A stretch of DNA of 64,000 bases from a virus, in the IMG/VR virus record IMGVR_UViG_3300040811_000825, positions 1 through 64,000 of that record, one strand, 5' to 3'. Positions 3,462 through 54,219 of the stretch are shown one piece after another (the stretch's first letter is position 1; the number at the start of each line of letters is the position of its first letter). The notes under the pieces are model-generated. The model ran no database searches and was not told where the DNA came from. It saw only the letters and a program-made list of their open reading frames with translations. Position numbers and translations under genes: made by a program.

Positions 3462-4115
3462 TTAGAGTTTTGATTCTACTGATTTCCAGTCATTATCAAA
3501 AATTTCAAGACCTTTATCAGTTAAAATATGATTATACATCTGTTCAAAAACCTTTGGTGGCATTGTAACGATTTGTGCTCCATTATACCAAGACCTCAAT
3601 GCTCTATGAACACTACGAATTGATGCTGACAAGACTTGAGTTTGAATTCCATGAATGCGATAGATATCAGCAATACCACGAACGACTTCAAGACCAGCAA
3701 CTTGCTGATCATCAAGTCTTCCAACAAAAGGAGAAACATATGTTGCCCCCGCTTTAGCAGCAAGAACTGCTTGCGCCATGCTGAAGATAAGTGTGACGTT
3801 GGTGCGAATACCTCTTTCAGAAAGGAATTTACAAACTTTCAGACCATCTTTAGTCATAGGAAGTTTGATAGTAGCGATGTCACCAAACTTTTCAGAAAGT
3901 CTAAGACCTTCTGCAGCCATTTGATCAGCATCGCCAACAACTTCCATGCTGAGGTCTTTAACACCAATGCCCTTAATATATTCGTAAACCTCTTCAGGAT
4001 CTCTGCCTGATTTTTTAATCAAAGTTGGATTAGTTGTTACTCCATCAATCAATCCAGTATCAAAATAATCTTTAATTGCCCAGTGGTCGGCGGTGTCTAA
4101 AAAAATCTTCATCAT
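3462..4115 (-). CDS. talC: Transaldolase (TalC/MipB type)
   Basis: The 217-residue protein starts MKIFLDTADHW and has DGVTTNPTLIKKSG, KLPMTKDGLK (Schiff-base lysine on strand 4) and TYVSPFVGRLDD, all hallmarks of the short fructose-6-phosphate-aldolase/TalC family. Cyanophage TalC is the well-known phage-type transaldolase of the pentose phosphate pathway. It overlaps petE by four bases (ATGA type) and lies ten bases before gnd, so the three are co-translated. Confidence 0.96.
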   Translation of the reverse strand: MMKIFLDTADHWAIKDYFDTGLIDGVTTNPTLIKKSGRDPEEVYEYIKGIGVKDLSMEVVGDADQMAAEGLRLSEKFGDIATIKLPMTKDGLKVCKFLSERGIRTNVTLIFSMAQAVLAAKAGATYVSPFVGRLDDQQVAGLEVVRGIADIYRIHGIQTQVLSASIRSVHRALRSWYNGAQIVTMPPKVFEQMYNHILTDKGLEIFDNDWKSVESKL

Positions 4116-4886: not shown

Positions 4887-4895
4887 ATTATAGCA
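4887..4895 (-). promoter_or_regulatory. Extended -10 promoter after the psbA terminator
   Basis: TGCTATAAT on the minus strand abuts the terminator U-run, the same junction as behind psbD. The gene at 4692-4865 starts 22 bases downstream. There is no recognisable -35 box. Confidence 0.5.
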
Positions 4896-4922
4896 TAAAA
4901 AAAGGACCTCACTTGGAGGTCC
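4896..4922 (-). terminator. Rho-independent terminator after psbA
   Basis: Perfect 7-bp stem GGACCTC/GAGGTCC with a five-base loop and seven U residues on the minus strand. It lies about 95 bases beyond the psbA stop, leaving a long 3' untranslated region (4923-5015) in which no gene is seen. Confidence 0.9.
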
Positions 4923-5015
4923 CTTCTTTTTTCTTATTCTGTTTTTGTGGTCTGTATATTTGAGGCCAAGTATCACGGATGATCTCGGCCAGTTTGTATG
5001 GTGTATCGGAAGATA

Positions 5016-16799: not shown

Positions 16800-16885
16800 C
16801 AATAAGTCTCACAAAGTTGTTGTACTGAATAACCTAAAAGGACAAAAAATGCAACTGAAGTTGCAGTAAAAAGTGTTGCTGTCAT
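16799..16885 (-). CDS. 28-residue membrane peptide
   Basis: ATG at 16885 overlaps the stop of hli (TGATG) and the stop at 16801-16799 overlaps the next ATG in the same way. The peptide is essentially a single helix (MTATLFTATSVAFFVLLGYS) with a short polar end. Size and topology resemble the tiny single-helix photosystem or cytochrome subunits, but no family match is claimed. The two exact TGATG junctions strongly support it as a gene. Confidence 0.6.
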   Translation of the reverse strand: MTATLFTATSVAFFVLLGYSVQQLCETY

Positions 16886-17088
16886 CAGAAGATGCCAAAG
16901 AAAAACTTGCCAGTGATAGCGTATGAAAGGAAACCAGAGATGATACCCATCATCGCCCAGCGACCATTGTAACGCTCGATATATTCATAAGGAGTATCCA
17001 GACCTTTGGAATGATAGGACTCGATTACCATTTCGGGCTCTTTTGCCCACATGTTCATCTGTCCTTGATCGTTAGTTGTTACAGTCAT
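16885..17088 (-). CDS. hli: High-light-inducible protein (Hli) with N-terminal extension
   Basis: The 67-residue protein has a polar extension (residues 1-37) and then the HLIP helix: EYIERYNGRWAMMGIISGF, with the family's Glu-Arg/Asn-Gly-Arg-Trp-Ala-Met pattern, ending in TGKFFFGIF. It should bind chlorophyll in the thylakoid and protect photosystem II. It is the first gene after the fused terminator/promoter at 17116-17154. Confidence 0.92.
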   Translation of the reverse strand: MTVTTNDQGQMNMWAKEPEMVIESYHSKGLDTPYEYIERYNGRWAMMGIISGFLSYAITGKFFFGIF

Positions 17089-17115
17089 GTTACATCCTGT
17101 TATAAATCTTTACAT

Positions 17116-17144
17116 ATTATATATTAAAAAAGAACCTCTGTCAA
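17116..17144 (-). promoter_or_regulatory. Perfect-consensus sigma70 promoter with -35 in a terminator loop
   Basis: TTGACA (17144-17139), 17 bp, TATAAT (17121-17116) on the minus strand. TTGACA is the loop of the terminator hairpin at 17126-17154. The promoter would drive hli and the overlapping genes after it. Confidence 0.8.
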
Positions 17145-17154
17145 GAGGCTCTTT
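17126..17154 (-). terminator. Terminator whose loop is the next promoter's -35 box
   Basis: Arms AGAGCCTC and GAGGTTCT enclose the loop TTGACA, followed by a U-run, on the minus strand, three bases after the stop codon of the gene at 17158-17343. Confidence 0.8.
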
Positions 17155-17157
17155 GTG

Positions 17158-17343
17158 TCAATTATAACCATTTACGATATTTTTACAAGTTTTCATGTTC
17201 TTTTTACAGAATGCCCTGACATAACTATCAGTGTCAAATTCCATTGTGTAATGGGCATGAGTGTGAAGTCCCTGAACTAAAATCAAAAAACCCACAATCA
17301 AAAGATTAAGGTGAGTTACTGGGGAAAAAAGAAATCTTTTCAT
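17158..17343 (-). CDS. Exported or membrane-anchored small protein
   Basis: From the ATG at 17343 the 61-residue protein has an N-terminal hydrophobic segment (LNLLIVGFLILVQGL, residues 12-26), then a polar part with two Cys residues (FCKKNMKTCKN). The ATG directly follows the U-run of the terminator at 17343-17371, so there is no room for a normal ribosome binding site. A frame extension upstream would be translated terminator sequence and is rejected. Function unknown. Confidence 0.55.
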   Translation of the reverse strand: MKRFLFSPVTHLNLLIVGFLILVQGLHTHAHYTMEFDTDSYVRAFCKKNMKTCKNIVNGYN

Positions 17344-17371
17344 AAAAAAAGAGGGGCCTTGAAGACCCCTC
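17343..17371 (-). terminator. Rho-independent terminator after the outer-membrane gene
   Basis: Arms GAGGGGTCTT and AAGGCCCCTC with a short loop, then UUUUUUUAUG on the minus strand. The AUG is the start codon of the next gene. Confidence 0.85.
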
Positions 17372-17388
17372 AATTTTAGCATGGTTTA

Positions 17389-30032: not shown

Positions 30033-30061
30033 ATGATACTAAAAAAGACCCTTGTTGTCAA
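30033..30061 (-). promoter_or_regulatory. Promoter of the sugar operon, -35 inside a terminator
   Basis: TTGACA (30061-30056), 17 bp, TATCAT (30038-30033) on the minus strand; the -35 box is in the loop and arm of the terminator at 30041-30069. It is the only good promoter ahead of the 13-gene sugar operon. Confidence 0.7.
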
Positions 30062-30069
30062 GGGTCTTT
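30041..30069 (-). terminator. Terminator overlapping the sugar-operon promoter
   Basis: AAAGACCCTTG and CAAGGGTCTTT arms with a four-base loop, followed by a U-run on the minus strand. The inverted repeat is symmetrical, and on the plus strand it has only a short U-run. Confidence 0.8.
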
Positions 30070-30974: not shown

Positions 30975-31003
30975 ATTATAAGGGTTTGACAGAGAACTGT
31001 CAA
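30975..31003 (-). promoter_or_regulatory. Perfect-consensus sigma70 promoter
   Basis: TTGACA (31003-30998), 17 bp, TATAAT (30980-30975) on the minus strand, directly after the 3' end of tRNA-Met and 23 bases before the gene at 30952. Confidence 0.85.
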
Positions 31004-46589: not shown

Positions 46590-46618
46590 ATTATAAAACC
46601 CACTCAACACAATGTCAA
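46590..46618 (-). promoter_or_regulatory. Perfect-consensus sigma70 promoter for tRNA-Ala
   Basis: TTGACA (46618-46613), 17 bp, TATAAT (46595-46590) on the minus strand, eleven bases before the tRNA. Confidence 0.87.
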
Positions 46619-46652
46619 GTGGGTAATGTCAACTTCCCAAGCAGTTTATTTA

Positions 46653-54190: not shown

Positions 54191-54219
54191 ATTCTAACAA
54201 TAAAAAAGAGGGGCGTCAA
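54191..54219 (-). promoter_or_regulatory. Sigma70 promoter with -35 in a terminator arm
   Basis: TTGACG (54219-54214), 17 bp, TAGAAT (54196-54191) on the minus strand; the -35 box is in the descending arm of the terminator hairpin. GTAAATAC lies just after it as a weak late element. Drives the Sm-like genes and perhaps gp43. Confidence 0.7.

Follow-up and report, generated by a model that had tools for sequence, protein, structure and literature searches.

Terminator hairpins that carry a promoter -35 box in their loops: a probable stop-start transcription element of cyanomyoviruses

In cyanomyoviruses, the loop of an intrinsic terminator recurrently doubles as the -35 box of the promoter of the next gene. 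The example dissected here lies on the minus strand at 17116-17154 of the window, i.e. the whole 64,000-nt stretch of DNA that was analysed. The window is part of a 68,183-bp virus record, and its genes and nearest relatives are those of T4-like cyanophages (Kyanoviridae). We consider it likely that such sites are fused stop-start transcription elements, which insulate single phage genes and at the same time promote them separately.

As read from the sequence, the element would act in two forms. As RNA, it would be an intrinsic terminator that ends transcripts from the upstream gene, with their 3' ends in the T-run. As duplex DNA, it would be read by a host sigma70-type holoenzyme, with the loop as the -35 and the 3' arm plus T-tract as the spacer, and that holoenzyme would start the next transcript from the same 40 bp. 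Cyanomyoviruses would reuse the element for single genes or small modules, including the genes after psbA and psbD, and where the loop lacks a -35, an extended -10 (TGn-TATAAT) in the same place would often substitute. We infer that both termination and initiation take place at the element in infected cells.

Anatomy of the site at 17116-17154

On the minus strand, AAAGAGCCTC-TTGACA-GAGGTTCTTTTTT makes up a strong intrinsic-terminator hairpin (-13.9 kcal/mol). Its fold at 17129-17154 has 11 pairs if a T:A pair closes the loop (z = -5.4; 0 of 200 shuffles equally stable); in energy terms, the loop at 17139-17144 can be taken as TGAC with a closing U-A pair or, on a stem of 10 bp, as a TTGACA hexaloop. 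The 5' arm AAAGAGCCTC (17145-17154), recognized by sequence reading and RNA folding, leads into the TTGACA at 17139-17144, which is hairpin loop and promoter -35 in one and is kept in sequence across relatives. The 3' arm GAGGTTCTTT (17129-17138), supported by folding and covariation, also forms the first 10 bp of the promoter spacer, and the T-run at 17126-17131, whose T columns are invariant in relatives, is the terminator's U-tract inside that same spacer. The promoter scan places the TATAAT -10 at 17116-17121, exactly 17 bp from the -35, and scores the promoter (17116-17144) at 12/12 matches to the consensus. After the GAGGTTCTTT arm, the order is TTT, AATA and TATAAT, with the hli03-like start codon 27 nt past the -10 and a transcription start predicted near 17109 (minus strand).

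Each of the two signals is complete, i.e. a stable G+C-rich hairpin followed by a U-tract at 17126-17154, as expected of an intrinsic terminator, and a -35 and a -10 separated by a spacer in the range of 16-18 bp at 17116-17144, as expected of a sigma70-type promoter. An earlier note on this DNA, which had suspected a cyanophage setting, gave the same coordinates for a TTGACA loop 17 bp from TATAAT; the setting is right and the description exact. The anatomy also bears out its claims that the promoter is a perfect consensus and that termination and initiation share bases, with loop, 3' arm and U-tract also being -35 and spacer.

The element is wedged between two small genes on the minus strand. 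Upstream, an ORF of 74 aa and unknown function (17158-17382, PHROG 2587) has a stop codon that ends 3 nt before the hairpin; downstream of the promoter lies the gene for an hli03-like high-light-inducible protein of 67 aa (16885-17088, PHROG 178, 5.6e-30). The hairpin at 17129-17154 is directional: on the plus strand no T-run follows it, which rules out a bidirectional terminator. An Rfam search of 17116-17154 at a permissive threshold gave matches only far under the families' own cut-offs.

Recurrence of fused sites and the choice of loop

The pattern TTGACA-N8-T5-N4-TATAAT was used to scan viral contigs, in which the -35 sits in a hairpin loop at 37 of 117 distinct pattern sites among the matches listed. 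With a control hexamer of the same composition, none of 21 sites in viral contigs had it in a hairpin loop, and in bacterial genomes the count was 3 of 119 pattern sites among the matches listed. A total of 386 cyanobacterial genomes yielded 19 matching promoters with a hairpin at none of them (0/19), and a host origin of the element was rejected on this count.

A more general view comes from 11 cyanomyovirus genomes (the window together with S-SM2, S-BM3, S-RIM8, S-H9-2, Syn9, S-PM2, S-TIM5, S-RIM32, S-CAM3 and P-SSM2), which contain 297 terminator-like hairpins. A promoter with at least 10/12 matches and its -35 in or beside the loop accompanies 25 of these, compared with a mean of 3.7 and a maximum of 9 in 300 rounds in which loops and flanks were shuffled; at 11/12 or better, 16 are observed against 0.78 expected. 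Binned by position in steps of 6 nt, promoter-grade -35 boxes number 21 in the bin at the loop, compared with a per-bin background of 0.92. Of the 25 fused sites, 7 belong to hli genes, and the remaining 18 by themselves are above the null maximum, with the qualification that the 11 genomes are related, so that the sites are not fully independent and several of the non-hli ones are probable orthologue pairs. The genes downstream are unrelated to each other and include, besides hli, those for a nucleotide-sugar epimerase, a cobS-like protein, PHROG 878, PHROG 431, a DNA methyltransferase and exonuclease-like, RtcB-like and DnaJ-like proteins, as well as small ORFs and genes after regA. As to taxonomic spread, locus L010 matches cyanomyovirus replication regions; L018, L065 and L096 match various other phages, and only weakly, so sporadic cases may exist outside cyanophages. 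A Clostridia-dominated sample of bacterial loci has 3 qualifying terminators among 344 and shows no peak.

These counts leave little room for a chance overlap of a common terminator with a consensus promoter. In favour of such a coincidence, both signals are AT-rich where they join and this phage is rich in perfect consensus promoters; the shuffle nulls, the control hexamer, the bacterial and cyanobacterial controls and the covariation described below all contradict it, and we regard chance as scarcely credible. The earlier note had likewise held chance to be unlikely and had proposed comparing TTGACA in cyanophage terminator loops with shuffled sequences, a comparison that the observed 25 passes.

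Harder to set aside is the view that short intergenic regions simply force a needed terminator and a needed promoter to overlap, with no regulatory meaning. The start codon lies about 57-66 nt past the hairpin start, the upstream stop codon is often within about 30 nt, and loop and spacer are where the two signals are free in sequence, all of which fits such compaction. On the other hand, T4 is compact too and has no fused site among 31 terminators. Moreover, the tandem spacing, with the promoter just after the terminator, is not enriched among the 297 terminators of the 11 genomes, so where both signals are joined, they are fused; selection for shortness alone would tolerate the tandem form. 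Pure compaction is a serious candidate, if not the one we would choose, and it is the minimal form of the stop-start explanation, from which it is hard to separate.

The fused sites follow a wider rule. Among the 84 terminators with a -10 at the correct spacing, 12 have TTGAC in the loop, compared with 5 of the other 213 (P = 2e-4), in which UUCG loops dominate, which shows that the choice of a TTGAC loop depends on the spaced -10. Across the 11 genomes, the starts of exact TATAAT hexamers peak 18-23 nt past the loop centre, and 44 occur 12-29 nt past it compared with 6.8 expected by shuffling. Of these 44 sites, 39% have a preceding TGn (all TATAAT: 10%) and 32% a -35 with at least 5/6 matches (background: 8%); the negative association between TGn and such a -35 is not significant (P = 0.12). 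Two classes emerge, namely class A, with the -35 in the loop, and class B, with an ordinary loop and often an extended -10, typically TTTTTTATGC-TATAAT. Class A hairpins match the other intergenic hairpins in stability. With 39 of 162 intergenic terminators fused in one way or the other, roughly one in four intrinsic terminators between genes appears to be promoter-fused in these viruses, which are very abundant in the ocean. The Clostridia-dominated bacterial loci have no such TATAAT excess (8 vs 6.3).

The site at 17116-17154 is one of several fused sites in the window and one member of a large class, a point absent from the earlier note. All further sites in the window are on the minus strand. 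A second class A site, upstream of a nucleotide-sugar epimerase gene, has the hairpin AAAGACCCTTG-ACAA-CAAGGGTCTTT at 30044-30069, with TTGACA at 30061-30056, then a T-run and TATCAT at 30038-30033. The third, upstream of tRNA-Ala, has a 12-bp hairpin at 46598-46624, with TTGACA as the -35 at the loop side of the 5' arm (46618-46613) and TATAAT at 46595-46590. Class B is represented after a psbD-like ORF, by a UUCG terminator followed by the extended -10 TTTTTTATGC-TATAAT (732-765) and no -35 in the loop, and after a psbA-like ORF, by a terminator followed by the extended -10 TTTTTTTATGC-TATAAT (4887-4928); both ORFs were named from reading their protein sequences.

A wcaG RNA (RF01761, a candidate riboswitch) at 30174-30078 directly precedes the fused site at 30044-30069. 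The same order, i.e. wcaG RNA, fused element no more than about 10 nt later and epimerase-like gene, is seen in the window (30174-30044) and in S-SM2 (L398:3437-3600). Here, the terminator may be the expression platform of the RNA, with the promoter giving a bypass.

Related arrangements were also observed, those in the window again on the minus strand. At 54219 of the window and in L078, L116, L118 and L120, a recurrent CTGG..CCAGTTGACR precedes a T-rich spacer and a -10, and the hairpin abuts the -35 or takes its TTG into the 3' arm. At 31003, just past tRNA-Met, the -35 of a perfect consensus promoter is part of the inverted repeat TTGACA-GTTCTC-TGTCAA. Finally, at 15918-15867, a perfect consensus promoter has a terminator-like hairpin and T-run about 4 nt past its -10, so its transcript would begin with a terminator.

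Conservation and covariation at hli promoters

A shared -10 context, TATAATRTGTAAAGATTT, served to gather promoters of the hli type from viral contigs and phage genomes, giving 84 distinct sites. In 62 of these, the -35 lies inside the loop of a hairpin of at least 6 bp, and 21 have the same promoter without the hairpin, indicating that termination is not always needed there. One hli promoter (L128, near 3624-3690) is a hybrid, with a left half of the hairpin type and a right half of the non-hairpin type that meet at the -35; it looks like the result of recombination inside TTGACA, or of a chimeric assembly.

Covariation was analysed in 21 diverse sites of the hexaloop type. TTGAC, the T-run (TTTTT) and TATAAT are invariant across these relatives and the arms vary, with the caveat that the set was picked for the presence of TTGAC and for stems of 6 bp or more, which biases the paired fraction and the invariance of TTGAC upward. 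What the selection does not explain is that 8 of 10 base pairs show two-sided changes in the 21 sequences, with 51 compensatory cells compared with 14.6 in shuffles. The covariation score of these sequences is 0.736 in the true register and 0.12-0.24 for slid arms, and the true register also pairs best among 77 sites that were not picked for pairing (0.73 vs 0.44-0.62). The arms are kept as structure, not as sequence, and the loop is kept as sequence; RNA hairpin and DNA promoter, and with them terminator and promoter function, thus both appear to be under selection.

This pattern bears on what else the inverted repeat could be. Palindromes that cover a -35 box are commonly operators, and a protein-binding operator without any terminator would account for the repeat as such. 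An operator would conserve its arms, however, and here the arms vary freely with compensating changes around a fixed loop, and an invariant T-run follows on one side only. With arms that differ between relatives, the operator was rejected and is very improbable. Hairpins can also act as promoters in single-stranded DNA, as in those read by the N4 virion RNA polymerase or in Frpo-type plasmid promoters, where the hairpin sequence is conserved. This type is unlikely here: the arms are not conserved, and a normal duplex consensus promoter is present.

Another feature of many hli promoters is a T4-late-like TATAAAT box at a fixed distance of about 23 nt upstream of the -35 (e.g. in L003, L004 and L001), the window's equivalent of which is TATAATT. 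In the available text of PMC3037559, TATAAAT is the query used for T4 late promoters. The hairpin might then be mainly a 5' leader: a late promoter upstream would start transcription at the hairpin base, and the hairpin would protect or attenuate late hli mRNA. Of 48 hli hairpin sites, 21 have the exact box at -23/-22 relative to the -35, and a relaxed version was counted 37 times at these positions. As the main role of the hairpin we think this quite unlikely, given that the box occurs at 4 of the 25 fused sites, 3 of them hli, and that a leader leaves the spaced -10 and -35 unexplained. As a general part of the element, the box was rejected, since it is found almost only at hli sites. Even so, late hli transcripts may begin with the hairpin, and a pure stop-start reading leaves the TATAAAT box unexplained.

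Mode of action and known systems

Under the stop-start reading, the design would be economical, because the terminator loop and the promoter spacer, each free in sequence within one signal, are fixed by the other. Given the footprint of RNA polymerase, an enzyme that ends at 17131-17123 covers the promoter, and a promoter-bound enzyme covers the hairpin. Terminating and initiating polymerases could therefore not occupy the site together, and upstream transcription would occlude the promoter. The earlier note had instead supposed that an occupied -35 would keep the nascent hairpin from forming on the template strand. As worded, this is not supported, since the hairpin forms in the RNA behind the elongating polymerase; what the geometry implies is that two polymerases are mutually exclusive on the same 50 bp. 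By the same geometry, a polymerase that has terminated would be left lying on the promoter, where a restart could be possible.

This raises the possibility of a hand-over, in which the polymerase that has just terminated stays on the DNA, rebinds sigma and restarts, coupling downstream expression to upstream flux. Single-molecule work on E. coli RNA polymerase found that the enzyme usually stays on the DNA after intrinsic termination, diffuses and can reinitiate nearby (PMC6978380, PMC6978322). Retention and reinitiation near terminators would suit a site whose termination point is about 18 bp from the predicted start, as would the enrichment of the fused but not the tandem spacing. Yet post-termination diffusion spans long distances, which makes fusion unnecessary for recycling, the secondary starts were mostly antisense (PMC6978322) and the evidence stems from E. 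coli, not from cyanobacteria. A hand-over receives a small share of our confidence, and most weight goes to simple insulation and compaction. It is similarly doubtful that the sites form a distinct regulatory class, in which a terminating polymerase would block the promoter or be handed to it and would tie the expression of single genes, hli included, to that of the gene above.

If the stop-start reading is right, it provides a simple rule for locating the boundaries of transcription units in cyanophages. It would also change the annotation of cyanophage operons, in which separate prediction of promoters and terminators misses the fusion. In addition, the element would be a minimal stop-start part of natural origin, about 40 bp long, and could offer a native setting for the post-termination recycling of RNA polymerase, which is known mainly from the E. 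coli enzyme.

Compared with known systems, the hairpin resembles other intrinsic terminators in its G+C-rich stem, short loop, U-tract and position at the 3' end of a gene. It differs from them in having a consensus -35 in its loop, a U-tract that falls within a promoter spacer and a choice of loop that depends on whether a -10 follows. Adjacent transcription units that share regulatory DNA are exemplified by E. coli frd-ampC, where the terminator of one unit serves the other and the shared hairpin is an attenuator downstream of the ampC start; in the present element, the hairpin precedes the start and supplies the -35 with its loop.

For cyanomyoviruses, promoters of the host sigma70 type (T4 'early'-like) were predicted genome-wide by Sullivan et al. 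2010 (PMC3037559), the available text of which handles promoters and terminators separately and does not mention their fusion. The promoters described here are like these in having TTGACA-17-TATAAT and a host holoenzyme as the expected reader. That single genes can have their own promoter and terminator is an old idea from the morons of lambdoid phages (PMC1524935, PMC2784084), which likewise are added single genes that are expressed autonomously. At hli, the promoter is the gene's own and the upstream genes differ between phages, and hli03 is a core gene of cyanomyoviruses according to the available text of PMC3037559. Unlike in morons, a single stretch of 40 bp is both the terminator of one unit and the promoter of the unit that follows.

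With post-termination recycling (PMC6978380, PMC6978322), the element would share a promoter placed where polymerase terminates and could possibly use it; recycling, however, is a biochemical phenomenon of E. coli and not a sequence element, and we infer the link between the two. The literature searched, with subscription journals mostly outside it, held no prior description of terminator loops that carry a -35, which is weak evidence of novelty. Terminator-promoter overlap as such is known, and we file its specific, recurrent and lineage-typical form in cyanomyoviruses as new.
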